DNA from: Bacillus sp. 123MFChir2
GTDB taxonomy: Bacteria; Bacillota; Bacilli; Bacillales; Bacillaceae_G
DNA: 64,000 bases
NCBI RefSeq assembly: GCF_000383235.1
Contig: NZ_KB910924.1
Location: 370,877-434,876, forward strand
Direction: 5' to 3'
Positions 39,352 to 56,428 of the stretch are shown here, piece by piece. The position numbers and the translations under genes were made by a program. The notes under the pieces were generated by a model that did no database searches, had not been told where the DNA came from, and saw nothing but the letters and a program-made list of their open reading frames with translations. Within the stretch, counting starts at the first letter, position 1, and each line of letters begins with the position of its first letter.

Positions 39352-40727
39352 TCTCCCTCCGTTACCTCTTGAATGGCTTGCTGTAAAATCGCAATCATAT
39401 CATCCAGTTCTTCTATCGTAGAAGCAAGTGGCGGCATAAAGACAACAACATTCCCTAGCGGGCGAAGAATCATTCCTAAATCACGTGCTCTTCTGCAAAC
39501 CTTCACACCGACTCGTTCCTGCCAAGAATATGCTTCCTTTGTTTCTTTATTTTGCACAAGCTCAATGCCAATCATAAAGCCGCGCTGACGAATATCTCCT
39601 ACATGCTTAAACCCCTGCAAAACTTCTAAGCGTTTTGCGATATATTCCGCTTTATGACTAACAGCTTCTATAAGATTAGTCGTTTCAAATAATTTTAAAT
39701 TCGCAAGTGCTACTGCACAGCCTAGCGGGTTCCCTGTATAACTATGACCGTGGAAAAACGTTTTTTGTTCCTCATAATCACCTAAAAATGCTCGATAAAT
39801 TTCATCCGTCGTTACGGTAATGGCAACCGGTAAATATCCTCCTGTTAGCCCCTTTCCGGCAGTTAAAATATCCGGTGTGATTCCCTCATGCTCACAAGCA
39901 AACATTTTTCCTGTTCTGCCAAATCCTGTTGCTACTTCATCTGTAATAAGAAGAACGTTGTATGCTGTACAAAGCTCTCTTAATCCTTTTAAGTAACCAT
40001 CTGGCATAGTAATGATACCACTCGCTCCTTGAACAAGTGGCTCAACAATAACAGCTGCCATTTCTTCATGATTGCCTCGCAATAAATCTTCCATTTCTTC
40101 TAAATGTTTTTTCACAATCATTTGCCCATCTTCCCCATAAGGAGAACGATATGTATACGGATATGATACTTTTAACGTATCAAATAAAAGCGTACTATAC
40201 ACTTGGTGAAACATATCAATCGCCCCGACAGATACCGCTCCAATTGTGTCGCCATGATACGCTTCTTTCATCGTAATAAACTTTTTCTTATTAGGCTTTC
40301 CTTTATGCTGCCAATATTGAAAGGCCATTTTAATTGCAATTTCAACTGATGTCGCACCAGAATCAGAATAAAAAACTTTCTTCAGTCCATTCGGTACAAT
40401 TTCAATAATTTTCTCGGCTAATAAAATACTTGGTACATTCGCGATACCTAGCAATGTAGAATGTGCAACTTTATTCAATTGCTCACGAATCGCATCATCT
40501 AACTCTTGAACATGGTGACCATGAACATTGAGCCAAATAGAAGACACACCGTCCCAATAGCCTTTTCCATTCACATCATATAATTTTCTTCCTTCTCCCC
40601 GTTCAATAATGACAGGATCATCTTCTAAATAATCTTTCATTTGGGTAAATGGATGCCACACATAATCTTTATTTTTTTGAGCTAATTCCTCATATGTAAA
40701 AGTTTGCTCCATGCTCCTCACACTCAT
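39348..40727 (-). CDS. bioA: DAPA aminotransferase BioA
   Basis: 459 residues, class III PLP aminotransferase. '[11 protein letters not shown]' at the start, '[20 protein letters not shown]', '[13 protein letters not shown]' and the PLP Lys in '[14 protein letters not shown]' are all present. I start at ATG 40727, which has AGAGGTGG upstream; the GTG nine bases before it is part of that site. First gene of the operon, directly behind the BirA operator. Confidence 0.95.
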
Positions 40728-40738
40728 GATTGCCACCT

Positions 40739-40775
40739 CTAATGTTAACTTATTTTAAATAAAGGTTAACATTAG
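40739..40775. promoter_or_regulatory. BirA operator of the biotin operon
   Basis: Two perfect 11-base arms, CTAATGTTAAC and GTTAACATTAG, are separated by 15 bases. This is the BirA-biotinyl-AMP operator layout. It overlaps the expected -10 region and reaches the ribosome site of bioA. Confidence 0.92.
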
Positions 40776-40786
40776 GAAACAAATAC

Positions 40787-40792
40787 TGTCAA
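40787..40792 (-). promoter_or_regulatory. -35 box of the biotin operon
   Basis: TTGACA on the minus strand, 12 bases from the BirA operator. The -10 would fall inside the operator. Confidence 0.65.
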
Positions 40793-40821
40793 TTCTTTTT
40801 GAGGAATCGTATTCTAAAAAA

Positions 40822-40851
40822 AGAACGACCTATTCTAAGATAAGTCGTTCT
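40822..40851 (-). terminator. Terminator of the small secreted protein gene
   Basis: An 8-bp stem (AGAACGAC / GTCGTTCT) with some inner pairing, then seven T on the minus strand. It isolates the gene from the bio promoter. Confidence 0.75.
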
Positions 40852-41197
40852 ACTGGCCGTGCTTCATTTTACCAATCTCTTGAATCAATTGTTCGTCCGT
40901 TTTACCTTCTACATCAATTCCAAGCTCTTTCGCATGCTCACGAAGAAGCTCTGGTCGCTTTTCAGAACGCACTGCGTCTATTTCTTTTTGAATCTGTTCT
41001 TTTGTTTTTCCTTCTGTAGAAACTTCGAATTTATCTGCTGTTTTTTTCATTTTTTCTTCTTCATCTTGTCTTACTGTTTCTTTTGGTTTTTCAACATTTT
41101 TCTGTATTGGATTAGGAGATGACGCAAATGCTGTATAAATTCCAGCACCACCAATGACTGTGACCAACAGTGAAATAATTATGATTTTTATCTTCAT
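40850..41197 (-). CDS. Small secreted protein with repeated 'EGKT' motif
   Basis: 115 residues. A signal or anchor segment covers about 3-24 (ends in YTAFAS). The charged mature part holds two related units: 'FEVSTEGKTKEQIQKEID' and 'LGIDVEGKTDEQLIQEIG'. A third relative is in the protein at 34525-34764. GGAGGG precedes ATG 41197. Function unknown; I do not recognise a named family. Confidence 0.7.
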   Translation of the reverse strand: MKIKIIIISLLVTVIGGAGIYTAFASSPNPIQKNVEKPKETVRQDEEEKMKKTADKFEVSTEGKTKEQIQKEIDAVRSEKRPELLREHAKELGIDVEGKTDEQLIQEIGKMKHGQ

Positions 41198-41339
41198 AAC
41201 TTTTCCCTCCTTAAGTTCATTATAACGAACAAAAAGATAATTTCTACTCTTTTTGTTGACCATTCAATTCTAAAAATAATTATTGGCATCCTCCTATTTT
41301 ATTTGGGATTGTCATATTACTAGCATTTGGATTCATAAA

Positions 41340-41370
41340 GAAAAGTCCGCTGCTTAGCAACGGACTTTTC
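41340..41370 (-). terminator. Terminator of the CpdB-type gene
   Basis: A 10-bp stem (GAAAAGTCCG / CGGACTTTTC) extended by three inner pairs (TGC / GCA). Confidence 0.85.
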
Positions 41371-41374
41371 TTTC

Positions 41375-43603
41375 TTATTTATTTAATTTCCTTCTTCTTA
41401 ATAACGCAACTGCACCTGCCCCAATAAACGCAAGACCTGCTCCTAATGTCGTAAACACATTCGCTCCTGTCTTTGGCAAACTGTTGTCTGATTTTGTTTG
41501 CTCTTTACCTGAGTCTGTTGCTGTCGGCTTTTCTTCGCTGTTTTTATTATCTTCTGTTTTCGGCTGATCTCCGCCATTGTTGTTATCTGTTGGCGTTTTC
41601 GGTTGATCCGTTCCATTATCGCCACCAGTTGGTTCATCTTTTTTCGTTAAATCAATTGCATATTTTGCAAATTCATTTTCTGATGGGCCAACGTAAGCAA
41701 TATTGCCGTCTTTTGTTATATATTTTTTGGCATTTGGAGAAGAATCAAATGTAACATTCAATTTCTCACCAGCAATTGGTTTAAATGCCCAGTTTTTATC
41801 CGCTGTCGGGTTAATCGTTTTTACTTCTTCCATATATTTCACAATAATTTGACGTGTTTCATCAGGAGACGGTAAAATCACTTCCCCTTTACTTACACCC
41901 GGGAATGTTTTACTGCTACCTCGGTAGTTATTCGTTGCAACAACAAACTCTTTACTGTCCGTTACCGGCTTTCCGTCATATGTTAAGTTTACAACACGAT
42001 TTGCACCTTCATTTATAACGTTTCCATCTTTGTCATATTTAGCAGGCTGCGTTACATCAATTTCATATTTCACGCCGTCTAATACATCAAAATTATATGT
42101 TGGATAGTCTTTATTTACTAATTTTTGCTCACCGGTTTTCTTTAGATCAATTTTGTTAAATTGACCAGCAGACATTTCTAACCAGTCTTTCAACTGAGCG
42201 CCATTTACTTTTACTGCATATAATGTGTTTGGATACACGTATAAGTCTGCAACATTTTTAATTGCAAGCGTTCCTGCCGGAATGTCTGTATAATATGTAG
42301 CGCCGTTACGTCCACCTGCTTTAAACGGTGCACCTGCAGATAATACAGGAATTCCTTTATATTCTTTGTATTTCTCATCATTTTCAAATAATTTTTTTAC
42401 ATACCACTTTTGTGCATTCGTTACAAGTTGAACAGACGGATCATCTTGGACAAGCGCAAAATAACTATTAATTGGCGCTGTCGTTGTACCAACTTTTGTA
42501 TCTACATAGTCCTTTGTTGCTTTATGTTCTGCTTTTATTTCATCAACAAGTCTTTGATCGGCTCCTACTGCCTTACCTTCTTTATCTATAATCGGACGAT
42601 ATTTTGGAATAGATTTTTCCTTTTGTACTTCCCATTTTCCGTTCACTTGCTTTAATTCCATATCAATCATTCCTATATTATTTCCGAAAACACCTGGCAT
42701 TACAACAGGAACACCACCATAATGTTCGGCTACTTCTGTATGAGAATGCCCCATCAGTACTGCGTCAACACCAGCAACTTTTGTTGCTAAATAATACGAT
42801 GCATTCTCCATATCAGATTTGTAACCGCTTTTATCAACACCCGAATGAGCTAACGCAACGATAACATCTGCGCCTTCTGCTTTCATTTTCGGCACCATTT
42901 GCTTTGCTGTTTCTACAATATCTTTTGCTATTACTTTTCCTTCTAAGTTCGCTTTATCCCAGCCCATAATTTGCGGTGGTACAAAGCCCATTACACCGAT
43001 TTTCACTTTCTTATCTAATTTATTACCAGCCTCATCAAATAATTCTTTTTCAAATATATGATACGGTTTGAAATAATTTTCACCACTTTTTGCATCATAC
43101 ACATTCGAGTTAATTACAGGAAACTGTGTTTTACTAATCACTTGATTTAAATAATCTAAACCATAGTTAAATTCATGATTTCCAAGAGAGATGACGTCAT
43201 ACTTCATTAAATTCATCATACGGTATAACGGATGCACATAGTTATATTTATCGCTTGTGCTTGGATCTAAATTATTAGTTTCTTTTTTTATTTTATTTGC
43301 CACATAATCACCCAGCGGCGTTCCTTGCAGTGCATCTCCATCATCAAATAAAACAGAGTTTTTTACCTCTCCACGCGCTTTATTAACAAGAGTCGCTGTT
43401 TGAACCAATCCTACTTTATTATCTGTTTTTGTTTGATAGTAATCATAGTTCATTAAATTTACGTGAATATCAGATGTTTCTAATATTCTTAGTTTTACAG
43501 TACTGTCCTCTCCCTCAGCATGTACAGGTGTCGCCACTACTTGTGGAGCAATAACACCTAATGCAAGTGCAGCACCAGCCAACGTTTTTGTTGATTTCTT
43601 CAC
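41375..43603 (-). CDS. cpdB: Cell-wall-anchored 2',3'-cyclic-nucleotide phosphodiesterase / 3'-nucleotidase
   Basis: 742 residues. Signal peptide ends near VHA (about 29). Metallophosphatase motifs: 'ILETSDIHVNLMNYDYY', 'FDDGDALQGTPLGDY', 'SLGNHEFNYG', 'LAHSGVD' and 'MGHSHTEV'. The nucleotide-binding domain follows. After a Pro/Thr/Asp-rich spacer comes the sortase signal LPKTG at 709-713, a hydrophobic segment and RRRK. It hydrolyses cyclic and 3' nucleotides outside the cell. Tandem PhoP-like boxes upstream suggest induction by phosphate limitation. Confidence 0.93.
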   Translation of the reverse strand: MKKSTKTLAGAALALGVIAPQVVATPVHAEGEDSTVKLRILETSDIHVNLMNYDYYQTKTDNKVGLVQTATLVNKARGEVKNSVLFDDGDALQGTPLGDYVANKIKKETNNLDPSTSDKYNYVHPLYRMMNLMKYDVISLGNHEFNYGLDYLNQVISKTQFPVINSNVYDAKSGENYFKPYHIFEKELFDEAGNKLDKKVKIGVMGFVPPQIMGWDKANLEGKVIAKDIVETAKQMVPKMKAEGADVIVALAHSGVDKSGYKSDMENASYYLATKVAGVDAVLMGHSHTEVAEHYGGVPVVMPGVFGNNIGMIDMELKQVNGKWEVQKEKSIPKYRPIIDKEGKAVGADQRLVDEIKAEHKATKDYVDTKVGTTTAPINSYFALVQDDPSVQLVTNAQKWYVKKLFENDEKYKEYKGIPVLSAGAPFKAGGRNGATYYTDIPAGTLAIKNVADLYVYPNTLYAVKVNGAQLKDWLEMSAGQFNKIDLKKTGEQKLVNKDYPTYNFDVLDGVKYEIDVTQPAKYDKDGNVINEGANRVVNLTYDGKPVTDSKEFVVATNNYRGSSKTFPGVSKGEVILPSPDETRQIIVKYMEEVKTINPTADKNWAFKPIAGEKLNVTFDSSPNAKKYITKDGNIAYVGPSENEFAKYAIDLTKKDEPTGGDNGTDQPKTPTDNNNGGDQPKTEDNKNSEEKPTATDSGKEQTKSDNSLPKTGANVFTTLGAGLAFIGAGAVALLRRRKLNK

Positions 43604-43746
43604 AAAAAATCCCCCTTATAACATAGTCCCCGGTTATAAAATAAATGATGGGATTCATGTCCCTTTTTCTTAAGCATCCAATCTATAAAGAAGTTAGTTG
43701 TCCTACTTCCTTTGCGAGTTGGATAAATTTACCCCATCTAAAATTT

Positions 43747-43776
43747 ATCATAACGAACAGCCGTTACTATCGTCAA
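43747..43776 (-). promoter_or_regulatory. Promoter of cpdB
   Basis: Minus strand: TTGACG (43771-43776), 18-base spacer, TATGAT (43747-43752). The leader of about 135 bases includes the stem GATAAATTT / AAATTTATC at 43722-43749. Confidence 0.55.
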
Positions 43777-43794
43777 CAAATTTTGACGTACTTC

Positions 43795-43822
43795 TACAAA
43801 TTTTCTGTAAAAGCATTGTAAA
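43795..43822 (-). promoter_or_regulatory. Tandem PhoP-box candidate upstream of cpdB
   Basis: On the minus strand three hexamers, TTTACA, TTTACA and TTTGTA, repeat at exact 11-base steps. PhoP sites in bacilli are TTAACA-like hexamers at 11-base spacing. The array ends about 19 bases before the -35 box. Confidence 0.55.
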
Positions 43823-43851
43823 ATTTTTATGAAGACGTAATGTATCTTCCA

Positions 43852-43879
43852 TTGCTTCTCATTATGAATATGATACAAT
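43852..43879 (+). promoter_or_regulatory. Promoter of the GDSL hydrolase gene
   Basis: TTGCTT, a 16-base spacer and TACAAT, 26 bases before the start codon. Confidence 0.55.
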
Positions 43880-43904
43880 AACCATTTATAAGGAGGATAA
43901 CATA

Positions 43905-44678
43905 ATGAAAAAACTTCTTTTGTCTACAGTTTGTCTCCTCCTTCTTATCATTATATTTTTGTATTGTGACAAGAATCATGAGACAAATATCCAAAAAGAA
44001 TCTCCAGCTACAACCGTTCCACACTGGGTTAATACACAAACAGATGCGACTCTTCATCATCTTGTCCTAGGTGATTCTCTTGCCAAAGGTTACGGATCTA
44101 CACAAGGTGGATATGTACAAGTTGCTTCTCATACATTAGAAACACAATTACAAAAACAAATTATAGTGGATAATCTTGCGGTAAACGGCTTAACAACAGA
44201 CCGGTTACTACAAATGTTGCAAACCGAAGAAGTGAAACAAAAAATAAAAGAAGCTCATATGATTACAATTAGCATTGGCGGGAATAACGTTTTACACATA
44301 AAGCGAGATGTCGGTGTAATAGAAGGAATGAAATTATTAAATGAAGAAAAGGATCATTTTGAACAAGATTTACAAAACATTGTAAAAACGATTCGTGCCG
44401 CTAATCCGAACGCACTCATCGTTTTATCTGAGCTCTATAACCCATTAAAACTGGACGATTCCATTGCTTCTTACGCAAATGTTTTCTTAGACAATTGGAA
44501 TAAAACAATATATTCAATTTCAAAAGAAAACCAACCTTCACTCGTTTTACCGATTCGCAAATTATTACCAAATGATCAAAAAGATTTACTGTATGATCAA
44601 GTTCATCCAAATGATAAAGGATATGAAATAATCGCAGAATCATTTGCACAACAAGTGTTGTCATATAACCATAAGTAG
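43905..44678 (+). CDS. SGNH/GDSL-family esterase
   Basis: 257 residues. One N-terminal hydrophobic segment (about 4-20) anchors or exports it. Block I is 'LVLGDSLAKGYG' with nucleophile Ser58, block III 'SIGGNNVLH' and block V 'DQVHPNDKGY' with the Asp and His. It resembles YpmR-like lipases of bacilli, acting on acyl esters at the cell surface. AAGGAGG lies seven bases before the ATG. Single gene. Confidence 0.88.
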   Translation: MKKLLLSTVCLLLLIIIFLYCDKNHETNIQKESPATTVPHWVNTQTDATLHHLVLGDSLAKGYGSTQGGYVQVASHTLETQLQKQIIVDNLAVNGLTTDRLLQMLQTEEVKQKIKEAHMITISIGGNNVLHIKRDVGVIEGMKLLNEEKDHFEQDLQNIVKTIRAANPNALIVLSELYNPLKLDDSIASYANVFLDNWNKTIYSISKENQPSLVLPIRKLLPNDQKDLLYDQVHPNDKGYEIIAESFAQQVLSYNHK

Positions 44679-44700
44679 GAACTCCACCTACTTATAGTTA
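44666..44700 (+). terminator. Hairpin after the GDSL gene
   Basis: ATAAGTAGG / CCTACTTAT with a 7-base loop, extended by partly matched bases, around the stop codon. There is no T-run, so termination is uncertain. Confidence 0.45.
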
Positions 44701-44898
44701 TATAAATACACATTCAAAACCAGACTAAAAGCCTCTTTCTTGTTAGGTGAGCGAGAGCATCTGGCCATACATAGAAATGGTAAGTGCCTTTTCCTGCCAC
44801 GTGCAAGGTTTAAGACAAAATGAGAAAGCAAGTAGGGGGCATGATTTATTCAGCATAACAACAACTTATATGCTGAAAAATTAAAATAAATTTATATA
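44699..44898 (-). repeat. Dispersed repeat, copy H (bcr-like)
   Basis: Reverse orientation, nearly complete. Ends TATATAAATACACATTC and (minus) TATATAAATTTATTTTAA. The core contains 'CTGGCCATACATAGAAATGG' and 'TCCTGCCACGTGCAAGG'. It is followed by GTTGAACCAATTGGG, which recurs at 46434-46448. Confidence 0.85.
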
Positions 44899-45015
44899 GT
44901 TGAACCAATTGGGTCCTTACAGATGTGTTTTCATCTTAGATTCACAAAAAAGCTCATTCTATTTTTATAACATTATGTTTTTTTGTTACAATAAGAAGAG
45001 AAGGGGGCCTGTCAT

Positions 45016-45462
45016 ATGGATTCACGTGAGTGGGAACGCATCGTTGATCATCTTCTTTCGCTAGTACCTCTTTTTTATCGCAAGTTTATGCTTCCTGGAG
45101 AGTTCTCTTCTCAGCGACACATGCCACCATCACATACGCAGGTGTTATTATTATTGCATGAGCGAGATACATTAGCAGTTTCAGAAATCGGCAAACGATT
45201 AGCTATTTCAAGGCCGAATATGACACCATTGCTAAATAAACTCATTCAAGAAGAGCTTGTAGAGCGCCATTATAGCGAAAAAGATCGACGTGTTATTTTA
45301 ATGTCTCTTACAACCGAAGGAAAATCATTAGTCAATCAATACAAACAATTCCTTTTAAAAAAACTAAAAGAAAATTTACAAACATTATCAGCAAGCGATC
45401 GGGAGCAGTTAACCCATTCCTTGCAAACAATCCAAAATTTAATTATGAAAGCAAACATATAA
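45016..45462 (+). CDS. MarR-family transcriptional regulator
   Basis: 148 residues. 'LAVSEIGKRLAISRPNMTPLLNKLIQEELV' is the recognition unit and 'HYSEKDRRVILMSLT' the wing with the DRR motif. AAGGGGG lies upstream. It stands alone after copy H, so its target is not evident. It is not close to the MarR protein at 2.1 kb. Confidence 0.88.
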   Translation: MDSREWERIVDHLLSLVPLFYRKFMLPGEFSSQRHMPPSHTQVLLLLHERDTLAVSEIGKRLAISRPNMTPLLNKLIQEELVERHYSEKDRRVILMSLTTEGKSLVNQYKQFLLKKLKENLQTLSASDREQLTHSLQTIQNLIMKANI

Positions 45463-45488
45463 AGCTGCTTCTAACGAGAAGCAGCTTT
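45461..45488. terminator. Bidirectional terminator
   Basis: A 12-bp perfect stem (AAAGCTGCTTCT and its complement), 4-base loop, between the MarR gene and the small Tyr-rich ORF. Confidence 0.9.
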
Positions 45489-45645
45489 ATGCTTCATAAT
45501 AATTTCCATAATATACATTTGAATACGGCCAAGTAGTTAAATATGGTTTACTTTCTTGCAATGGTTGCACAGTCTGTTTTATATATGGAACAGGATAATA
45601 CTTTACATGTGGATAATACCTTGGATCATAATAAGAAAAAAACAT
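45487..45645 (-). CDS. Small tyrosine-rich protein
   Basis: 52 residues, of which 13 are Tyr and 6 Pro. It opens with 'MFFSYYDPRYYPHVKYYPVP' and ends with 'SNVYYGNYYEA'. AAAGGAGG lies seven bases before the ATG, and the gene ends exactly at a terminator shared with the MarR gene, so it is likely real. Tyr-rich short proteins in bacilli are often spore coat components; that is only a guess here. Confidence 0.65.
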   Translation of the reverse strand: MFFSYYDPRYYPHVKYYPVPYIKQTVQPLQESKPYLTTWPYSNVYYGNYYEA

Positions 45646-45699
45646 CAGCTTTCCTCCTTTTTAGAAGCATATTCAAAAAGGAAATTTGATGTGCATTTA

Positions 45700-46251
45700 T
45701 TATAGTTGTACAATTGGTCTTTTTATTTGTTTCTTTCTTTTCGTCAATCGTAATTTACGATTTTTCTCGTACAAATAGTACATTACAAAATAAGCGATTA
45801 TACCAAGTACAATTCCTATAATCGTCATACCTATTATGACATATACTTCACTTTGTAACAGGCTTCTTAAAATTGTTAACCCATTACTTGAAAAAATGTC
45901 TCCTATCGTATAATGGTGAATTGGTATTTTTTTTACCTCAAAAGGATAAATAAGTTTTCCAAGCGCATGCGCAAAAGGAATTAGCAGAACAGGTAAAAAT
46001 GTTAATTTCCCAATAATATTACCGATAACAGCTGCAGGAAATGAGCCATTTAATAATCGAACAAGTGGATAAAAAATCAAGTATACAAGCGAAACCGTGT
46101 GAATAACTAACATCTCCATTCCAAACCCAACAGCAAATCCCCTTGATACGATTTTCGCGCCTTCTGGTGCACGCAATAATTTATAATAATTTAACTTCAT
46201 CCCTCGCCAAATACGCTGAAAGAATGAATATGTTTTCTTACTTACTCGCAT
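45700..46251 (-). CDS. DUF2062 membrane protein
   Basis: 183 residues with three or four membrane segments (about 50-70, 78-100, 138-165). 'APEGAKIVSRGFAVGFGMEMLVIHT' and 'NIIGKLTFLPVL' follow the DUF2062 pattern (similar to the glycine-rich G-F-x-G-x-x segment of that family). A basic tail ends the protein. Function unknown; members are found near polysaccharide or lipid genes in other bacteria. Confidence 0.8.
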   Translation of the reverse strand: MRVSKKTYSFFQRIWRGMKLNYYKLLRAPEGAKIVSRGFAVGFGMEMLVIHTVSLVYLIFYPLVRLLNGSFPAAVIGNIIGKLTFLPVLLIPFAHALGKLIYPFEVKKIPIHHYTIGDIFSSNGLTILRSLLQSEVYVIIGMTIIGIVLGIIAYFVMYYLYEKNRKLRLTKRKKQIKRPIVQL

Positions 46252-46343
46252 CTACATCATCTCTCTTATATTTTTCTGTTTCTTACTATTATAAAGTATG
46301 TAAAGAGAAAATGCGAAATCTAGATAAGACATTTCGAACCAAA

Positions 46344-46372
46344 AACAACCTTCTATTATGAAGAAGGTTGTT
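46344..46372 (-). terminator. Orphan terminator on the minus strand
   Basis: An 11-bp stem (AACAACCTTCT and its complement), 7-base loop and a T-run on the minus strand. No intact gene ends here; it may be the old terminator of the lost arg genes. Confidence 0.55.
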
Positions 46373-46389
46373 CATCTTGTAATAAAGTG

Positions 46390-46547
46390 AAACTTTAATC
46401 AGTGGGGGTTTTCTTCATCCCCCACTGATTATTAGTTGAACCAATCGGGCTTTTACGGGCAGTTTATCTCCCACCTAACTTCTTTGCTTTCGCCGAATTT
46501 TAAGGTGGGAGTATTACTGCCCGTTAATGCGGGATAACTGACTAATA
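46390..46547. repeat. Double-hairpin element next to the argF remnant
   Basis: Hairpin 1 (46396-46431) has a 13-bp stem TAATCAGTGGGGG / CCCCCACTGATTA. Hairpin 2 (46455-46524) has outer arms ACGGGCAGT / ACTGCCCGT and inner arms CTCCCACCT / AGGTGGGAG. The outer edges TTAATCAGT and ACTGACTAA form an imperfect inverted repeat, so the unit of about 155 bases looks mobile. Its inner GTTGAACCAATCGGG recurs behind copy H. I do not recognise it with certainty. Confidence 0.6.
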
Positions 46548-46695
46548 ATGCCTTTTGTACATGCAGACGGTTTCCCGCGTGTTGAAACACAATTGATTGT
46601 GGACCATCAATGATTTCTGAAATGACTTCTTCTTCGCGATATGCTAGTAGACAATGTAAGAAACGATAAGTTGATTTTGCTAATAAACCTTTAAG
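46540..46695 (-). pseudogene. argF: argF remnant: C-terminal end of ornithine carbamoyltransferase
   Basis: Read on the minus strand, 46540-46695 gives '[15 protein letters not shown]', then '[19 protein letters not shown]' and 'HVQKALLVS'. This is the end of ornithine carbamoyltransferase, whose catalytic HCLPAHR motif is here HCLLAYR. There is no start and nothing of the first ~270 residues; the frame then runs into the hairpin element. OTCase joins ornithine and carbamoyl phosphate. The gene is dead. Confidence 0.85.
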
Positions 46696-46697
46696 AG

Positions 46698-46737
46698 AAA
46701 GGGATTTTTACGCCCTGTTTTTAATTTGTAGTTATAA
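46698..46737 (+). repeat. Right-end fragment of the dispersed repeat (copy M)
   Basis: 'GGGATTTTTACGCCCTG' then 'TTTTTAATTTGTAGTTATA' matches the right end of copies D and A. Nothing else of the repeat is left. It abuts the argF remnant. Confidence 0.6.
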
Positions 46738-46739
46738 AA

Positions 46740-46772
46740 AATAGGAGATTCTCTTTTTGAGAACCTCCTATT
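46740..46772 (-). terminator. Terminator of the SDR-MBL pair
   Basis: AATAGGAG and TTCTC pair with GAGAA and CTCCTATT around one mismatch and a 5-base loop; T-run on the minus strand. Confidence 0.8.
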
Positions 46773-47562
46773 TTTTACTTAATGATCTTCCAGCAACACG
46801 TTCGAATAAACCAGGAAACAAGGAAAAGACAATTGGTCCTAAACTCATCCATTTCGGTAAATTCACTTCACGTTTTTTTGTTTCAATCGCTTTTACGATT
46901 TGCTGCGCTACATAATGTGGTTTCAATATGTAACGTTCAACACTTTTTACGTATGTACCAGATTGATCAGCTATCGTATGAAAGTTTGTATCAATTGGAC
47001 CTGGATTAATTGCTGTTACAGTAATATTTGTATTTACAAGTTCCATACGCAAACTATTCGTAAACCCTAATACTGCATGTTTCGTTGCTGCATATGCACT
47101 TGATTTCGGCGTTGCAATTTTCCCTGCTAGTGAAGCGATATTTACAATATGTCCGCTATTTCGTTCGATCATATAAGGTAAAACTGCTTTCGTACATGCT
47201 ACTAAGCCGAATACATTTACATCAAACATATCCTTTACTTCTTGTACAGATGCATCAACAAACGTTTTAAACACACCAAAGCCAGCATTATTGACTAATA
47301 TATCAACGCTCCCTATATCTTGAAGCACTTGTGTAAAAACAAGTTCCACTTCTTTTTCATTACTTACATCCAAAACATAATAATGGCAAGAAGTACGATA
47401 TGTGGTTTCAATTTTTTGTTTAAGCTCTCGTAACTTTTCTTCTGTGCGAGCGATTAGTACAGGGATTGCCCCCTGATCCGCTGCTTGCATCGCTAACTCT
47501 TCCCCAATTCCACTTGAAGCTCCTGTTATGACGATTACTTTATCTTGTAAACGCCTATTCAT
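46768..47562 (-). CDS. yqjQ: Short-chain dehydrogenase/reductase, YqjQ type
   Basis: 264 residues. NADP motif 'VIVITGASSGIGEELAM' at the start, 'LVNNAGFGVF' near 85, Ser in 'IVNIASLAGKIATP' and the YxxxK pair in 'AYAATKHAVLGF'. A C-terminal hydrophobic stretch 'LGPIVFSLFPGLFERVA' may touch the membrane. GGTGA lies just upstream of ATG 47562. It is translated after the MBL gene, which ends 9 bases before, as yqjP-yqjQ in B. subtilis. Confidence 0.88.
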   Translation of the reverse strand: MNRRLQDKVIVITGASSGIGEELAMQAADQGAIPVLIARTEEKLRELKQKIETTYRTSCHYYVLDVSNEKEVELVFTQVLQDIGSVDILVNNAGFGVFKTFVDASVQEVKDMFDVNVFGLVACTKAVLPYMIERNSGHIVNIASLAGKIATPKSSAYAATKHAVLGFTNSLRMELVNTNITVTAINPGPIDTNFHTIADQSGTYVKSVERYILKPHYVAQQIVKAIETKKREVNLPKWMSLGPIVFSLFPGLFERVAGRSLSKK

Positions 47563-47571
47563 GGCTGTCAC

Positions 47572-48522
47572 CTACTTTGCATAGTAAATCCATTTCTCTG
47601 ATGACTTATCAATCATCACCTGTTGATTATATGCTAAAAAGTCTAATTGTCCAACTGTTTCAGAGATTGTAAGGGGTAACTGCTTTTCAAATAGCACAGG
47701 AAATAGTTTGACGCATACTTGAAATGCTGTCATCGGTTGTTCCTGTAATAAATTTAACACTTTAAAAGCACGCGCCTCTTGTTTTTGAAGACGCTCATTT
47801 ACTAATTTTTTCACATCGATAACATCTTCCCCATGCCCTGGTAAAACACGTGATATATTCATACTAGCTAAGCGCTTTAATGTTTCATTGTACTGCAACA
47901 TCGGCTTCGCTCGTTCTGTTTCTCCTTCATATGGCGGTTCTAAAATTGGATTAGAGGAAATATGCCCAATTAAAGCATCACCACCAATTAACAATCCATC
48001 CTTTTCACGATATAAAGAAATATGGGTAGAAGCATGCCCTGGTGTTTCAATTACCGTAAATTCCGGTAACGATGCAATGCGATCTCCTTCCCTTACAGTA
48101 TGTGTAAGCGAACGCTTACAGGCATAAATCATTGTTTTCGTTAATGATGCACTTTGTTTTAAAAATGTTTCAGGAACTCCAAAATTTCTAGATTCCTCCA
48201 AAAAGAATTGTTGATATCGCTTTAGAAATTGCGGATCTTGTGTAATCCACGGTTCATTCCACGGATGGCCGACAATATTTGTTTGGTTAGAGAATATTCC
48301 TAATAATCCGCAATGATCAGCATGGTGGTGTGTCAGCACAACTGTTTCAATATCTTCTACCTTATATCCTAATGCATTTAATTGCTTCTCTAATGCTAGT
48401 TTCGCTTCTTCTGTATTCGTTCCTGTATCAATTAATGTTAGTGTTTCTCCCTCCACTAAAAAAACATTAACGATTTCTACCGCAAATGGCACAGGAATTT
48501 CTAATCTATGAATAACTGTCAT
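47572..48522 (-). CDS. yqjP: MBL-fold metallohydrolase, YqjP type
   Basis: 316 residues. Metal site 'VVLTHHHADHCGLLG' (about 61-75), 'ETPGHASTHISLY', 'GGDALIGH' and 'VLPGHGEDV'. The C-terminal third has the winged-helix-like tail of the LACTB2/YqjP group. Likely a hydrolase of a thioester or lactone, substrate unknown. First gene of the pair with the SDR. Confidence 0.88.
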   Translation of the reverse strand: MTVIHRLEIPVPFAVEIVNVFLVEGETLTLIDTGTNTEEAKLALEKQLNALGYKVEDIETVVLTHHHADHCGLLGIFSNQTNIVGHPWNEPWITQDPQFLKRYQQFFLEESRNFGVPETFLKQSASLTKTMIYACKRSLTHTVREGDRIASLPEFTVIETPGHASTHISLYREKDGLLIGGDALIGHISSNPILEPPYEGETERAKPMLQYNETLKRLASMNISRVLPGHGEDVIDVKKLVNERLQKQEARAFKVLNLLQEQPMTAFQVCVKLFPVLFEKQLPLTISETVGQLDFLAYNQQVMIDKSSEKWIYYAK

Positions 48523-48696
48523 ACTATATGCCCCCTTTGTTTCTCCGTTTCGAAAAATGAATCTTCCTTCAGTTTACATCTAACATAAAAATTTGTCATT
48601 ATTTTCAGATAAAAAGAGGAGATTTTCTAAGAAGAATAGAATGTATGTAGATTTATATAAGTCATTCTCATATGCATAGAAAAAGGGGGATACATC

Positions 48697-49536
48697 ATGT
48701 CATTACAAAAAATCGCTTTTGTCGGCGCAGGATCGATTGCCGAAGCCACAATCGCTGGATTATTACAAGCCCAAGTTGTAAAAGGAGAACAAATTGTTGT
48801 TAGTAATCACTCTAATAAAAAAAGGCTACAAGAGTTGTATCACCGTTACGGCGTACATGGTACACATGATAAAAAAGAGCTGATTGCCAACGCTGATATT
48901 ATATTTTTAGCAATGAAACCAAAAGATATTGTAGAAGCTCTTACTCCATTACGAGATTATATTACGAAGAATCAATTAATCATTTCATTACTAGCTGGCG
49001 TATCCACGGCATCCATTGTCACCTTACTGAAAAAGGATGTTCCTATTATTAGGTCAATGCCAAATACATCATCAGCAATTTTAAAATCTGCTACTGCCAT
49101 TTCTCCTTCTGTTCATGCAAAAGAAGAGCATATATTGCTTACAAAAACGCTTTTTGAAACAATTGGCATTGTGTCTGTTGTGGAAGAAAAGCATATGCAT
49201 GCTGTCACCGCTTTATCAGGAAGTGGCCCAGCTTATATTTATTACGTTGTAGAAGCAATGGAAAATGCAGCAAAGCAAATTGGCTTAGAGGAAACTGTAG
49301 CAAAATCACTTATTCTCCAAACAATGATTGGTGCCGCAGAAATGTTAAAAACAAATGAAAAGCATCCTTCTATATTAAGAAAAGAAATTACATCGCCAGG
49401 AGGAACGACAGAAGCTGGCATTGAAGTGTTGAAAAGCTTTCAATTTCAAGAAGCACTCATTCAATGTATAACAGAAGCAACAAAACGTTCTCACGAGCTT
49501 GGTGAAACGTTAGAGAAGTTTGTAAATGAAAAATAA
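48697..49536 (+). CDS. proI: Pyrroline-5-carboxylate reductase
   Basis: 279 residues. Rossmann start 'IAFVGAGSIAEATIAGLL', then 'IIFLAMKPKDIVEAL', 'IRSMPNTSSAI' and the dimer helix signature 'ALSGSGPAYIYYVVEAMENAA' and 'ITSPGGTTEAGIEVL'. It reduces P5C to proline. Position behind yqjP and yqjQ is that of proI. AAAAAGGGGG precedes the ATG. Confidence 0.93.
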   Translation: MSLQKIAFVGAGSIAEATIAGLLQAQVVKGEQIVVSNHSNKKRLQELYHRYGVHGTHDKKELIANADIIFLAMKPKDIVEALTPLRDYITKNQLIISLLAGVSTASIVTLLKKDVPIIRSMPNTSSAILKSATAISPSVHAKEEHILLTKTLFETIGIVSVVEEKHMHAVTALSGSGPAYIYYVVEAMENAAKQIGLEETVAKSLILQTMIGAAEMLKTNEKHPSILRKEITSPGGTTEAGIEVLKSFQFQEALIQCITEATKRSHELGETLEKFVNEK

Positions 49537-49566
49537 AAAACCTTGCTGCGTAAGCAAGGTTTTTTA
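49535..49566. terminator. Bidirectional terminator
   Basis: ACCTTGCT / AGCAAGGT with a 5-base loop, flanked by A- and T-runs, between the convergent proI and sdaAA genes. Confidence 0.85.
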
Positions 49567-50445
49567 TTTTTCACTTTTCTTCCCAAAAATTTCTTCCTGC
49601 AAACGACGTCCTGTCGGCGTTGCAGCAAGACCGCCTTCTGCTGTTTCACGAAGCGCACTTGGCATCGTTTGTCCGATGCGATACATTGCTTCAATAACTT
49701 CATCACACGGAATGATACTCGTTACACCAGCTAATGATAAATCAGCTGCAATCATCGCATTTGATGCACCAGCTGCGTTACGTTTTACACATGGTACTTC
49801 TACAAGCCCTGCAACAGGATCGCATACTAACCCAAGCATATTTTTAAGTGCAATACTCATCGCTGTTGCTGCCTGCTTTTGTGTACCTCCAGCCATTTCA
49901 ACAGCTGCCGCCGCCGCCATTCCACTTGCTGAACCAACTTCCGCTTGGCACCCACCAGCTGCTCCGGCAATACAAGCATTATTTGCTACAACCATACCAA
50001 ATGCACCAGCTGTAAATAGAAATTCAATCATTTCTTCGCGCGTTGGATTCAATTTTTCTTTTAGCGCAAATAACACACCTGGTACTGTCCCTGCAGAACC
50101 AGCCGTTGGCGTTGCACAAATAATTCCCATCGCAGCATTTACTTCATTTGTTGCGACAGCTTTACTTACCGCATCTAAAATTGTATCGCCTGATAAACCT
50201 TTTCCACTTTTCATATACGCTTGTACTTTCACTGCATCTCCACCAGTAAGCCCCGTTGGAGATTTCACACCTTGAATTCCACGCTCAACTGCTTGTTCCA
50301 TTACAACTAAGTTTTTTTCCATACCAGCGATTACTTCTTCACGAGAAAGATTTCTTGTTTCCATTTCACACTGAATCATAATCTCTGCGATTTTTACATT
50401 TTTCTCTTCTGCTTGTGCAACTAGTTCCGCTACGTTCCGAAACAT
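49564..50445 (-). CDS. sdaAA: L-serine dehydratase, alpha subunit
   Basis: 293 residues. The iron-sulfur Cys are in 'NNACIAGAAGGCQAEVGSASGM', 'LVCDPVAGLVEVPCVKRN' and 'IIPCDEV'. 'SPTGLTGGDAVK' is the substrate loop. With the beta chain it splits Ser into pyruvate and ammonia. It follows sdaAB after 18 bases. Confidence 0.94.
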   Translation of the reverse strand: MFRNVAELVAQAEEKNVKIAEIMIQCEMETRNLSREEVIAGMEKNLVVMEQAVERGIQGVKSPTGLTGGDAVKVQAYMKSGKGLSGDTILDAVSKAVATNEVNAAMGIICATPTAGSAGTVPGVLFALKEKLNPTREEMIEFLFTAGAFGMVVANNACIAGAAGGCQAEVGSASGMAAAAAVEMAGGTQKQAATAMSIALKNMLGLVCDPVAGLVEVPCVKRNAAGASNAMIAADLSLAGVTSIIPCDEVIEAMYRIGQTMPSALRETAEGGLAATPTGRRLQEEIFGKKSEK

Positions 50446-50463
50446 GTTGTGTCCCCCCCGCTA

Positions 50464-51123
50464 TTATTCCATAATTGTTACTTGACAAATATTTTGCTGC
50501 GCTTTAATTTCATCGATAATTTTATCTGCTAACAACTCATCCGTTTCAATAACCATTAACGCTTTTCTTCCTTTTTCCTTACGTGAAACACTCATCATAC
50601 TAATATTAATTTCGTGCTTCGCAAGAATAGATGTAACAGAAGCAATTGTTCCGAAACGGTCATTATTTACAATAAGAAGCGCCGGACTTGTACCTGTTAA
50701 TTGCAAATCAAATCCATTGAGCTCCACAACTTCAATTTTCCCGCCGCCAATTGAACAAGCAACAACTTCAATTTCATCCTCACCTTTATACAAACGAAGT
50801 TTCGCTGTATTTGGATGGACTGCTTGCGCTTCTTCTTCAATAAACGTAACATCAATTCCGCGCTCCTTTGCAATTTCAAGCGCTTGTGGAATACGAGGAT
50901 CATCCGTTTCGAATCCTAATATTCCCCCAACAAGTGCTACATCAGTTCCATGACCTCGATATGTTTTCGCAAACGAACCGTATAACGAAATGATAATTTT
51001 CTCAGGTTCATGACGAAACAGCTGACGAGCAACTTGCCCCATTCTTGCCGCACCTGCCGTATGCGAACTAGATGGTCCAATCATAACCGGACCGATAATA
51101 TCAAAAACTGAACGATATTTCAT
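50464..51123 (-). CDS. sdaAB: L-serine dehydratase, beta subunit
   Basis: 219 residues. 'DIIGPVMIGPSSSHTAGAARMG' is the family signature and binds Ser; the C-terminal ACT domain ('PALLIVNNDRFGTIASVTSIL') can sense Ser. First gene of the pair. A cre-like site lies about 230 bases upstream. Confidence 0.94.
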   Translation of the reverse strand: MKYRSVFDIIGPVMIGPSSSHTAGAARMGQVARQLFRHEPEKIIISLYGSFAKTYRGHGTDVALVGGILGFETDDPRIPQALEIAKERGIDVTFIEEEAQAVHPNTAKLRLYKGEDEIEVVACSIGGGKIEVVELNGFDLQLTGTSPALLIVNNDRFGTIASVTSILAKHEINISMMSVSRKEKGRKALMVIETDELLADKIIDEIKAQQNICQVTIME

Positions 51124-51352
51124 AACAGTTCCCCCTAAATCTTCATTATGAAAAGAGTTACTTACTAATAATCTATTAAGTAAATGCTTTCTTTGTTTTT
51201 CTATTTGTACTAATAAATTTATAGAATTTATTCAACAAACTGATACACACCATCAGCTATCATAATATATAAGAGCTCTCTTGTCACTTTTTGATTTACT
51301 ACATTTTTTCACAAAAACATCCAAAGTGTAAATTTATACTGTACAAATATAA

Positions 51353-51367
51353 CGAATGCGCTTTCAT
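51353..51367 (-). promoter_or_regulatory. cre-like site upstream of sdaAB
   Basis: Minus strand ATGAAAGCGCATTCG, matching WTGNAANCGNWNNCW at 14 of 15. It would place Ser breakdown under carbon catabolite control. Confidence 0.5.
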
Positions 51368-51445
51368 TATATCTCTTTTTTGGCAGAATTTAAATTTTTT
51401 AATATTTCAAATTAAGGACATTGTTTCCGTTTTATGAGAATAAAA

Positions 51446-51484
51446 AAAGAATGACAGATGTAATCAATATCTCTGTCACTCTTT
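51446..51484 (-). terminator. Terminator of rnz
   Basis: AAAGA and TGACAGA pair with TCTGTCA and TCTTT around one A-C mismatch; loop of 13 bases; T-run on the minus strand. Confidence 0.75.
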
Positions 51485-51488
51485 TTCC

Positions 51489-52412
51489 TTACCTTGATAC
51501 AGGAAAACGTTTCAAATCCGCTGCAATTTCCGTATTCGGAAATACTTGTTTCGCTTCTTCGAGAAGTATTTTCCACGTTTCTCCTTGATAACGAGAACTA
51601 ATGTGAGTTAAAATCATTTGTTTTACATTTGCTTGTACGGCAATATTTGCTGCTTGTTCTGTTGTAGAATGATAATAATCATGGGCTTGCTGTGAATCTT
51701 CTGCACCAAACGTTGCTTCATGTACTAATACATCAGCATCTTGGGCTAATTGAATACTCGCTTCGCAATAACGCGTATCTCCTAAAATTGTAATAATTCG
51801 GCCCTTTTGGGGTGGCCCAATAAAATCCTGTCCACAAAGTACGCGTCCATCTTCAAGCTCTACCGTTTCCCCATCTTTTAATCGCTTAAAGAGTGGTCCT
51901 GGTTTAACCCCTTCATCTAATAATTTATCTATAAGAAGATGCCCTGGAATATCTTTTTCCACAATACGATAGCCAAAACATTCAATACCGTGCGACAATC
52001 GCTTCGTTTCCACAAGAAATTGTTTATCTTCAAATACAGTACCTTCTTCAGTAATTTCAATAATCTCAAGTGGGTATTTCACATGTGTTGTACTCACTGC
52101 CAAGGCAACTTCAATAAACTGTTTAATCCCCTTTGGTCCATATACAGTTAACGGAGTTGTTCCTCCTTGAAAAGAGCGGCTTCCTAACAAACCAGGCAAT
52201 CCAAAAATGTGATCACCATGTAAATGTGTAATAAATATTTTTTCAATGCGACGCGGACGCACTGATGTATGTAAAATTTGATGTTGCGTTGCCTCGCCGC
52301 AATCAAATAACCACGTCGCACCTCTCTCCTCCAATAATTGCAAAGCTATCGCTGATACGTTTCTTCCCTTTGCAGGAACACCAGCCCCTGTTCCTAAAAA
52401 CACAAATTCCAC
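51489..52412 (-). CDS. rnz: Ribonuclease Z
   Basis: 307 residues, exactly the B. subtilis length. '[20 protein letters not shown]' starts it; the zinc motif is '[20 protein letters not shown]', then '[10 protein letters not shown]' and '[11 protein letters not shown]'. It trims the 3' end of tRNA precursors. I start at GTG 52412, which has GGAGG upstream; this trims six residues from the longest frame. Confidence 0.95.
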
Positions 52413-52497
52413 GTTGCATCCTCCAAGCATTTCATAATCTCTATTGTTATCTTACGGAATATAAACAAAAATGGCAAATCAACTTTATACGAACTTT

Positions 52498-53736
52498 TTA
52501 TGTGAATTTATCCTCTAATTTTTGTTGAAATGTTCTCTCCTGTTGCCGAAACACTTGACTACCGTGCTGAATAACCTTCGCCCCGTATTTATTATTTAAT
52601 TCCTCCATCACTGTCAAAAGTGGTTCTACCTTCGCATCTTCTTCAAATGAAAATAAATCAAGCTGCTTAATCGCTTCTGTTTTCCATTCTAATTCACAAG
52701 CAGTAACTCCAAGTAATCGAACAGGATCACCGTCCCAATGTTTTTTCCATAACCGTATTGTCGCCTGAAAAATGTCCCTCCATTCCCAAATCACATTTTC
52801 TAACATTTTACTACGCGTAATCGTTCGGCGATTATAGTATTTAATCGTAATTTGAATATTATATGCAACAAGGGTACGTTTTTGTAATCTCCTGCTGACA
52901 GATTGAGATAAGCGCTCTAACGTACCTAATAATTCCTGCTCTTCGTCTACATCTTTTGGCAACGTTATAGAATTTCCAATCGTTTTATACTGTCCCATTT
53001 GACTTGGATCAACTGCTCTATTATCAATACCATTTGCACGTTTTTGTAAATCCAAGCCATGATTTCCAATTACCGAACGAATAATAGAAGCTTTTCCATT
53101 AGCTAAATCCCCAATCGTATGTATACGTACATCTATTAACTTTTCTGCTGTTTTCTTTCCGATGCCATGCATTTTTTCCACTGGAAGCGGCCAAAGCAGC
53201 TCTTGTATATCACGTTTACGAAGTACTGTAATGCCTAGCGGTTTTTTCATATCAGAGGCTGTTTTAGCTAGAAACAAGTTCGGAGCAATTCCAATGCTGC
53301 ATGGAAGCTGTAATTCTGTAAGTAATGTTTGTTGAATCATTTGAGCAATTTCTAACGGCGAACCGAGACCGTAACAATCTGTAATATCTATATACCCTTC
53401 ATCAATTGAGACTGGTTGAATTTTTTCTGTAAACCGTGCCAGAATTTGAAACAATGCAAAAGAAGCCTCCCGGTATAACTCAAAGTTTGGATGCTTTACA
53501 ATGAGGTCTGGGCATAGCCGCTTCGCTTCCCAAACAGGCATTGTTGCACGAACTCCTTTTGCTCTTGCTTCATAACTACACGTGACAATAATGCCTTTTC
53601 GTTCTTTCGCATTACCAGCTATCGCCAATGATTTTCCTTGCAAAGATGCATCGCGGGCAATTTCAACAGATGCATAAAAACAATTCATATCAACATGCAA
53701 AATGACACGGCCATTTTTCGGATACATTTCACGCAT
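52498..53736 (-). CDS. dinB: DNA polymerase IV (Y family)
   Basis: 412 residues. 'ILHVDMNCFYASVE' and 'QPVSIDEGYIDITD' carry the catalytic Asp/Glu; 'KMHGIGKKTAEKL' is the helix-hairpin-helix, and the little-finger domain follows. The tail 'QLDLFSFEE' is a beta-clamp binding motif (QxxLF). It copies past lesions. ATG 53736 is preceded by GGTGGTGAG. This is the PolY1 position of B. subtilis. Confidence 0.94.
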   Translation of the reverse strand: MREMYPKNGRVILHVDMNCFYASVEIARDASLQGKSLAIAGNAKERKGIIVTCSYEARAKGVRATMPVWEAKRLCPDLIVKHPNFELYREASFALFQILARFTEKIQPVSIDEGYIDITDCYGLGSPLEIAQMIQQTLLTELQLPCSIGIAPNLFLAKTASDMKKPLGITVLRKRDIQELLWPLPVEKMHGIGKKTAEKLIDVRIHTIGDLANGKASIIRSVIGNHGLDLQKRANGIDNRAVDPSQMGQYKTIGNSITLPKDVDEEQELLGTLERLSQSVSRRLQKRTLVAYNIQITIKYYNRRTITRSKMLENVIWEWRDIFQATIRLWKKHWDGDPVRLLGVTACELEWKTEAIKQLDLFSFEEDAKVEPLLTVMEELNNKYGAKVIQHGSQVFRQQERTFQQKLEDKFT

Positions 53737-53871
53737 CTTTCTCACCACCAAAGGAACATTTGTTCTTATCTTACCAAAAAACTTATAAAAAAATCAATAT
53801 TTGAAAGGATGGAATTGTTACTATATAGAAGTATGTCCACAGAGACGCTACTAGGAGGTGAAGAAGGAAAC

Positions 53872-54072
53872 ATGACTATACGTTCAAAACCTCTTTATCT
53901 AATTTTACTCTCCATTTTCTTTTTGTTGCTTATCTATTTCCTACTTCCAATCGTGGGCATCGATGCTTACGTGCTTCTTTCATCTCTATTGTCATTTTCA
54001 ACTCTGTACATTCTTCCATGGATTTTTCTATACTGGTTTATCCGTCTTGTAAAGGCAATAGAAGCAAAATAA
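53872..54072 (+). CDS. Small membrane protein, unknown
   Basis: 66 residues with two membrane segments (about 8-28 and 38-60) and a basic end. AAGGAAAC precedes the ATG and a stronger AGGAGGTGA lies 11 bases from it. It stands divergent from dinB. I do not recognise it. Confidence 0.65.
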   Translation: MTIRSKPLYLILLSIFFLLLIYFLLPIVGIDAYVLLSSLLSFSTLYILPWIFLYWFIRLVKAIEAK

Positions 54073-54097
54073 CGAACACTCTTAAGGAGAGAAGAAA

Positions 54098-54668
54098 ATG
54101 AACGAAGAATTTGATAACAAACATTTTAGACTCGAAAAAATTCGTAACGGGATATATGCGGCAATTGCAAAAGAAGGTGGCGGTGCTGCAGCAAATGCTG
54201 GATTTATTAGGCGGTACAACTATTATTTTTTGATACATTTAATACACAACAAGCTTCTCTGGATTTAAAATACGCAGCAGAAACAATAACAAATCAACCC
54301 GTTACATGGGTGATCAACAGTCATTGGCACGGAGACCACATTCGAGGGAACCAAACGTTTAAGGATAGCACCATTATTTCAAGCGAAATGACATATGACG
54401 AAATGAAAACTGCCCATCCATCACGAATCAGTAAACAAAAAAATGATATTGATGGGCTAACAAATTATATTTATTCTTTAAAGGACCAAATAGCTCAAAC
54501 TTATGATATGAACTTAGAACATCAAATTAATTTTTTAAGTGAGTTGGAAATTTCATTACCTACACTCGAGTTAACGTTACCACAACAAACTTTTAAAGAT
54601 GAGGTTATGCTCCATGGGACGAAGCGTAGCGCAAAGCTTTTCACATTAGGAGGGGGACATTCCCTTTG
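54098..54668 (+). pseudogene. MBL-fold metallohydrolase, frameshifted and truncated
   Basis: It begins with ATG 54098 behind AAGGAGAG and reads 'MNEEFDNKHFRLEKIRNGIY'. After 'ANAGFI' the frame breaks near 54209, next to an extra T in a run of six near 54228. From 54310 the frame continues with 'WVINSHWHGDHIRGNQTF', the MBL metal motif. After 'LFTLGGGHS' near 54661 the rest (about half the protein) is missing and repeat copy I begins. It was an MBL-fold hydrolase; it cannot make an active enzyme. Confidence 0.88.
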
Positions 54669-54833
54669 CGATGCTATGCATAACACAACATGACCGCTAC
54701 TTACTTTCTCCTTTTGTTTTAAACATTGCACGTGGTAGGAAAAGGCCTTGACCGTTACTATGCATGGCCAGATGCTCTTGTCCATCTAAAAAAAATGGGT
54801 TTATATGTCGTTTTTTCAACTTGTATTTATATA
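54669..54833 (+). repeat. Dispersed repeat, copy I (bcr-like, left end missing)
   Basis: From 'GATGCTATGCATAACACAAC' on it matches copy E, with the core 'TTGCACGTGGTAGGAAAAGG', 'TTGACCGTTACTATGCATGG' and right end 'TTTTTTCAACTTGTATTTA'. The left terminal repeat (about 40 bases) is absent; broken MBL gene sequence joins instead. Confidence 0.85.
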
Positions 54834-54862
54834 GTTGAAAACCATTTACGTAAAGCAATAAG

Positions 54863-54894
54863 AAAAAGCATGGGTCATTTCACCCATGCTTTTT
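54863..54894 (-). terminator. Terminator of the peptidase gene
   Basis: A 13-bp stem (AAAAAGCATGGGT and its complement) with a 6-base loop. Confidence 0.85.
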
Positions 54895-54913
54895 CGCTTA
54901 TTCTCTTCTTTGA

Positions 54914-56032
54914 TTACTTCGCTACTTCTTCAATAATCGCAACAACCATTTCTGCTGTTTTCACTAGTTCTTCAACAGGAATTTTTTCGTTTGTTGTATG
55001 AATTTCTTCATAACCAATCGCTAAGTTTACTGTTGGAATACCATGGCCTGCAATTACGTTTGCATCGCTACCGCCACCGCTTTGGTGAAGAGATGGTGTA
55101 CGGCCAATTTTTTCAGCAGCACGTTTTGCAACTTCTACAACGTGATCGCCATCAGCAAATTTAAATCCTGGGTACATTACTTTTACTTCTACGTCTGCTT
55201 CCCCGCCCATTTCTTTCGCTGTAGATTCAAATGCTTCTTTCATTTTACGAACTTGCTCTTGCATTTTTTCGTCTACTAAAGAACGCGCTTCAGCAAAAAT
55301 TTCGACATAGTCACAAACGATATTTGTTTGTGTTCCACCTTCAAAACGACCGATATTTGCAGTTGTTTCAGAATCAATGCGGCCAAGTGGCATTTTTGCA
55401 ATAGATTTTGCTGCAATTGTAATTGCAGATACACCTTTTTCTGGTGCTACACCAGCGTGAGCTGTTTTCCCACGAATAATTGCATTTACTTTCGCTTGCG
55501 TTGGTGCTGCAACAACGATTTCTCCAACTTTTCCATCGCTATCTAATGCATAACCATATTTCGCTGTAATGCGTTCACGATTTAATGCTTTTGCACCAAC
55601 AAGACCAGATTCTTCACCAACTGTAATGATGAATTCTATTTTTCCGTGCGCAATATTCTTCTCTTTTAACACGCGAATTGCTTCAAACATAGATGCAAGT
55701 CCAGCTTTATCATCAGCACCTAAAATTGTTGTACCGTCAGATACGATATAACCATCTTGAATTGAAGGCTTAATTCCTTTACCAGGAACAACTGTATCCA
55801 TATGAGAAGTAAAGTAGATTGTATCTACGCCTTCTTTTGTTGCTGGTAATGTACAAACTAAGTTACCAGCACCGTGACCAGTCTCTCCCATTGTATCATC
55901 TTCAAATACTTCAACGCCTAAAGAAGAGAATTTTTCTTTTAACACTTTGCAAATTTCAGCTTCGTATTTTGTTTCAGAGTCTACTTGCACAAGTTCCATA
56001 AATTCATTCACTAAACGTTCTTGATTAATCAT
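54914..56032 (-). CDS. M20-family peptidase, PepT/YqjE type
   Basis: 372 residues. Metal ligands in 'IYFTSHMDTVVPG' , 'ILGADDKAGLAS', 'VGEESGLVGAK' and 'LHQSGGGSDANV'. The dimer domain is in the middle ('KVNAIIRGKTAHAGVAPEKG'). It resembles tripeptidase T and B. subtilis YqjE, hydrolysing short peptides. Cotranscription is not evident; repeat copy J lies upstream. Confidence 0.9.
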   Translation of the reverse strand: MINQERLVNEFMELVQVDSETKYEAEICKVLKEKFSSLGVEVFEDDTMGETGHGAGNLVCTLPATKEGVDTIYFTSHMDTVVPGKGIKPSIQDGYIVSDGTTILGADDKAGLASMFEAIRVLKEKNIAHGKIEFIITVGEESGLVGAKALNRERITAKYGYALDSDGKVGEIVVAAPTQAKVNAIIRGKTAHAGVAPEKGVSAITIAAKSIAKMPLGRIDSETTANIGRFEGGTQTNIVCDYVEIFAEARSLVDEKMQEQVRKMKEAFESTAKEMGGEADVEVKVMYPGFKFADGDHVVEVAKRAAEKIGRTPSLHQSGGGSDANVIAGHGIPTVNLAIGYEEIHTTNEKIPVEELVKTAEMVVAIIEEVAK

Positions 56033-56129
56033 GAGAATACGCCTCCTGCGTTATGTATGTAACAATGACTATTATAACAGAATTCTGTAAAGGTTTCGAA
56101 GAAGAAGATATATAAAGTGTAATTTTAAG

Positions 56130-56333
56130 TAATTACTCAGTCACTGTATGAAAAAAAGAAAGAAAAGCATCTTTTTAAATGGGCGAGAGGGACTGGCTAT
56201 GTATAGCGGTCAGTGCCTTTTCCTACCAAGCGCAAAGTTTTAAAACAAAGAGAGGTAGCGAGGTGGAGGCGCATTTTCGCTGTAACCATACTCCTTATCA
56301 AACTTCTAAATGAACTGTATGACTGAGTAGTTA
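56130..56333 (-). repeat. Dispersed repeat, copy J (second subfamily)
   Basis: Reverse orientation. Its ends TAATTACTCAGTCA and TGACTGAGTAGTTA form a 14-base inverted repeat with one mismatch, unlike the TATATAAAT ends of other copies. The core (minus strand) 'GGTAGGAAAAGGCACTGACC' is that of the family and resembles copy C. Confidence 0.8.
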
Positions 56334-56428
56334 GGAATTATGTAAAAAATGTCTCACGCTAGACCCTTGTACCAAAATTCATTTGTATATACAATAAGAT
56401 TGAGGAGATTCGCAAGGAGGATCTAAAG

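Follow-up and report, generated by a model that had tools for sequence, protein, structure and literature searches.

On the minus strand of the window (the whole 64 kb stretch of DNA that was analysed), the gene for an MBL-fold hydrolase (47572-48522) is followed by the gene for an SDR family oxidoreductase (46768-47571), a hairpin, a 48-bp repeat tail, the tail of argF, a hairpin-rich element, a short flank, a second hairpin ending in TTTTT and the gene for a DUF2062 protein (45700-46251). The MBL and SDR genes were assigned by profile match and synteny, and the DUF2062 gene by Pfam and synteny. The MBL gene is a conserved neighbour, while the SDR and DUF2062 genes mark the upstream and downstream borders of the operon that we argue was lost here. 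The first hairpin (46734-46778, minus strand), with a 20-bp stem and a fold of -26.5 kcal/mol, is the putative terminator of the SDR gene. The second (46343-46373, minus strand; -15.7 kcal/mol) agrees with an orphan argF terminator, which an earlier sequence-only reading of this DNA had placed behind the argF tail. As neither hairpin was listed in a consensus terminator scan, both terminators are assigned from their folds. Viral contigs scanned with the SDR and DUF2062 proteins yielded no relative, and a near-similarity DNA search of plasmids and phages returned nothing similar to window positions 40000-58000. From the identity of its DeoB and from its bcr1-like repeats, we infer that the window is B. 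cereus-group chromosome. Its DeoB is about 93% identical, by hand count on the alignment, to 3m8w, a protein that we take to be from B. cereus; such a distance points to a divergent lineage within the group.

The argF remnant (46543-46680, minus strand) encodes about 46 residues from the end of the OTC domain. It matches positions 255-300 of 307 in PRK00779 (E = 6.4e-18) and positions 109-154 of 157 in Pfam PF00185 (OTCace; E = 1.7e-14), where its score of 54.6 against a cut-off of 29.4 makes the match to the OTC Asp/Orn-binding domain significant. The best match among solved structures is 4nf2/4ep1, presumably the anabolic ornithine carbamoyltransferase of Bacillus anthracis, with 46 residues aligned (284-329 of the 340-residue chain; E = 1.1e-19). 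Compared with that enzyme, roughly five sixths of the protein is missing from the remnant, and two residues are changed in its HCLPAHR motif, which begins at 46656 and reads HCLLAYR. Its score of 49.4 bits lies far below the whole-protein cut-off of TIGR00658 (280.85 bits), by which a functional argF would be recognized; what is left, profile positions 255-300 of 307 with the P and H of the motif changed, is what a truncated or non-functional gene would look like. The sequence-only reading had claimed the last ~50 codons of argF at this place. The tail is real, and by profile and structure matches the homology before the hairpin element covers about 46-48 codons, slightly under that figure.

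The decay of the motif, also claimed from the letters, proved to be real. The proline replaced by leucine and the histidine replaced by tyrosine are both invariant in 18/18 intact argF genes. This comparison set comprises 18 of the 20 genes over the cut-off, those of G006 and G119 being left out; the script that located the motif accepts HCLP, then A/G/V, H/Y and R, and dropped none of the 18 input genes. Twenty of the 43 aligned residues are identical across the intact genes, and the remnant differs at two of these 20. Codon positions 1 and 2 hold 42% of the differences of the remnant versus 37% for 153 intact pairs, a weak signal in the direction expected of decay. Since this excess is small, decay is argued mainly from the truncation and the two motif changes. 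The remnant looks dead, and its function has presumably been lost.

Downstream, the remnant reads ALLVS and then runs into the hairpin-rich repeat element (46382-46540), which has ATAAA/TTTAT-type ends and corresponds to the double-hairpin element noted earlier beside the argF tail. A covariance model, for which the window copy was among the 25 building sequences, scores it at 183.5 bits; the weaker match on the opposite strand (40.4 bits) results from the palindromes of the element. The flank beyond (46356-46385, minus strand), which overlaps the shared end of the element by 4 bases, reads LLQDEQPSS-stop in its own frame and is probably the old argF C-terminus. Together, VS and LLQDEQPSS make 11 residues, the same number as follow the aligned stretch in the 4nf2/4ep1 chain (aligned to 329 of 340), which points to an insertion of the element among the final codons of argF.

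At its other end, the remnant meets a truncated tail of the interspersed, bcr1-like repeat of the window (46689-46736, plus strand). A repeat-tail model, trained on 7 other copies in the window with the copy at the junction left out, matches this segment over model positions 36-83 of 92 (nhmmer, E = 6.3e-5), and the best match in a reversed-window control has an E of 1.7; a repeat end fragment beside the argF tail, as had been proposed, is therefore real. Because the argF homology ends at 46680 and the repeat homology starts at 46689, the deletion junction is placed in 46681-46688. The copy has lost its head there. With at most 8 bases between repeat tail and argF homology, the layout fits the earlier suggestion of a deletion ending in a repeat.

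The gene order of relatives was compared next to these borders. A DNA search with a 2351-base query gave some match in 344 of 397 genomes of one order, the four strongest matches being in G378, G135, G072 and G278. By ORF comparison, the order MBL-SDR-argCJBDF-DUF2062, which is that of the window with the operon present, is found in G378 (L084), G399 (L124) and G400 (L125), and MBL-SDR-argCJBDF in G135 (L085) and G072 (L086). The arg genes were named by NCBIfam in L084 and L085 and by BLAST to L084 in L124 and L125; in L086, argF was named by profile search and the other arg genes from the layout. An extra ORF lies between SDR and argC in L084, on the opposite strand, and also in L125. These Bacillales argCJBDF loci resemble the window in orientation and in having MBL and SDR before argC, and those of G378, G399 and G400 also in having DUF2062 after argF, but in the window the argF tail alone is left. 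Thus, the operon occupies the same place on both flanks in three relatives (L084, L124 and L125) and on the SDR side in two (L085 and L086). It is absent from L087 (G278) and L088 (G119), which have no arg genes beside the SDR gene and whose argF genes are on other contigs. The statement in the sequence-only reading that relatives carry argCJBDF beside the SDR gene is accordingly true of five of the seven relatives read ORF by ORF (L084-L088, L124 and L125) and fails for the other two.

In the family of G378, the SDR is at least 61% identical in 6 of 19 genomes, five of which have argF within ~8 kb; the remaining 13 have SDR matches of 49-52%, with argF elsewhere. The closest SDR in the comparison shares 74% identity with that of the window, and none of the relatives could be identified as a member of the species group of the window; the SDR of G400 is 70% identical and that of G278 61%.

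We consider it about 90% probable that argCJBDF was lost by one deletion of ~5.5-6 kb, reaching from the interior of the repeat into argF, that the remaining tail decayed and that the hairpin element is a separate matter. In the ancestor, the SDR and DUF2062 genes would have flanked a minus-strand argCJBDF operon, with an interspersed repeat between the SDR terminator and argC. A single deletion of ~5.5-6 kb, from the repeat interior to profile position 255 of 307 in argF, roughly five sixths of the way along the gene, would have cut away some of the repeat, all of argC, argJ, argB and argD and the greater part of argF, and the argF tail left by it would then have decayed. The hairpin-rich mobile repeat would have inserted near the argF 3' end separately, before or after the deletion. 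The remnant, its truncation, the motif change, the gene order of relatives and the truncated repeat at the junction are seen directly; from these we would deduce that there was a single event, how large it was, how it is ordered with respect to the element, and that the recombination was illegitimate and did not run from repeat to repeat. As regards size, the operon-containing stretch spans ~5.5-6 kb in L084, L085, L086 and L124 and ~7.8 kb, with the extra ORF, in L125 (ORF-table distances). As regards mechanism, the junction joins a single truncated copy of the repeat to argF sequence that is not repeat. We therefore favour illegitimate recombination and do not regard homologous recombination from repeat to repeat as the likely mechanism.

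A repeat of this family is found at the corresponding place in one relative. Between argC and SDR, the inferred site of the ancestral repeat of the window, L125 carries a pair of tails belonging to this family, at 9698-9784 and 9892-9959 (E = 3.4e-8 and 8.1e-8 in a search across all retrieved loci). Their strand is opposite to that of the window fragment, so they do not represent the same insertion, which counts against the single-deletion account, as do the lack of arg genes by the SDR gene in G278 and G119, the small codon-position excess and the 74% identity of the nearest SDR compared. The locus is in itself an ordinary gene-loss scar. Its value lies in recording how an operon for a biosynthetic pathway disappeared: the deletion ends in a repeat of an interspersed family, its junction is confined to 8 bases, and the border genes on either side are identified. 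A literature search, judged by title and the start of the abstract and with most subscription journals outside its coverage, gave no paper on arginine loss in the B. cereus group.

What the loss means for the strain depends on whether a second operon exists. In the G378 family, all 19 genomes have a single argF match at E <= 1e-60, and in each it lies above the cut-off; in a set of 22 genomes partly overlapping this family, 20 have argF over the cut-off, G211 has no argF match and G185 has a sub-cut-off match only. The single strong OTC match per family genome makes the loss of a sole operon plausible; with argF in 19/19 and 20/22 genomes, such a loss would be uncommon. The strain has about an even chance of being an arginine auxotroph. 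The odds are likewise evenly balanced for the broader proposal of a lineage naturally auxotrophic for arginine among operon-keeping relatives, the loss of the operon having been seeded by a mobile interspersed repeat between SDR and argC. Somewhat behind these stands the explanation that an intact arg operon lies elsewhere in the genome and arginine is made normally, the locus being the scar of the old place. The argF gene of G278, whose SDR is the 61% identical one, is on another contig, so that a different arg location is possible in principle, and argF over the cut-off is kept throughout the 19 family genomes; nevertheless, the same 19 genomes have exactly one match at E <= 1e-60 each, which makes a spare copy unusual there. 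If no second copy exists, a directly testable nutritional requirement is predicted.

Loss in two or more steps, in which the element or a point change damaged argF first and the operon disappeared later, perhaps piecemeal, is a less likely course of events. The position of the element inside the last argF codons and the changed motif residues of the remnant would suit it, but the repeat tail (46689-46736) and the SDR hairpin (46734-46778) take up the whole gap between argF tail and SDR gene, so that no other arg pieces would fit, and one junction is enough. An assembly chimera or chance similarity in place of a real pseudogene is scarcely credible in view of the E values in three libraries (1.7e-14, 6.4e-18 and 1.1e-19), the synteny on both flanks and the hairpin terminator that follows the remnant.

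The repeat family itself is dense in the window: within 64 kb, 12 bcr1-like tails match at E < 0.01, including the 7 model copies and the junction fragment; sites include 1979, 13219, 19400, 30129, 33847, 44781 and 54750. PMC6542083 describes B. cereus repeats (BCR) as interspersed, 100-400 bp long and mostly chromosomal, with a mobility tied to a TTTAT motif; there, the first BCR element is given as confined to the B. cereus group and bcr1 as averaging 39 per strain. The window repeat, likewise interspersed, is a candidate member of bcr1 or another BCR family. At 44899-44920, the motif GTTGAACCAATTGGGTCCTTAC, which resembles the central GTTGAACCAATCGG of the hairpin element, adjoins a bcr1-like copy, with the rest of the element absent; the covariance model of the element reported no match at these positions.

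As a side finding, the hairpin element is more unusual than the argF scar: it is structured, and it occurs widely in the sampled order. A repeat of ~150-160 bp, it matched at E <= 1e-4 in 67 of the 199 genomes searched from that order, and 14 of the positive genomes have at least 14 scored candidates each. In an alignment of 25 copies, both sides are changed in 13 of 38 pairs, a value reached in 0/500 shuffles, the structure being derived from the same alignment. The copies have ATAAA-type ends and flanks that are unlike one another. Rfam gave no match at the gathering score in 40000-52000; in 46300-46800, 14 matches at E <= 1 were returned, none of them at the gathering score. In PLSDB, 2 of 72,556 plasmid records contain the element (matches include L067:4001-4156 and L067:3652-3810): a Pseudalkalibacillus hwajinpoensis plasmid, in three places, and one Klebsiella grimontii plasmid, with 40% of the element. 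With so few plasmid records, the element seems mainly chromosomal. As to a Y1 (HUH) transposase as its possible mover, a piece of the element at E < 0.01 lies at 3 of 30 Y1_Tnp loci (L094, L100 and L107), on one side of the gene in each; these loci were taken from 12 element-bearing genomes, most spanning 1.5 kb on each side and some less. A piece of the element is also present in L125, at 3103-3185. In L119, L120, L121, L122 and L123, copies lie head to tail (three in L119) and neighbours share one GATAA(A/G) end, as if the element inserted at its own end sequence.
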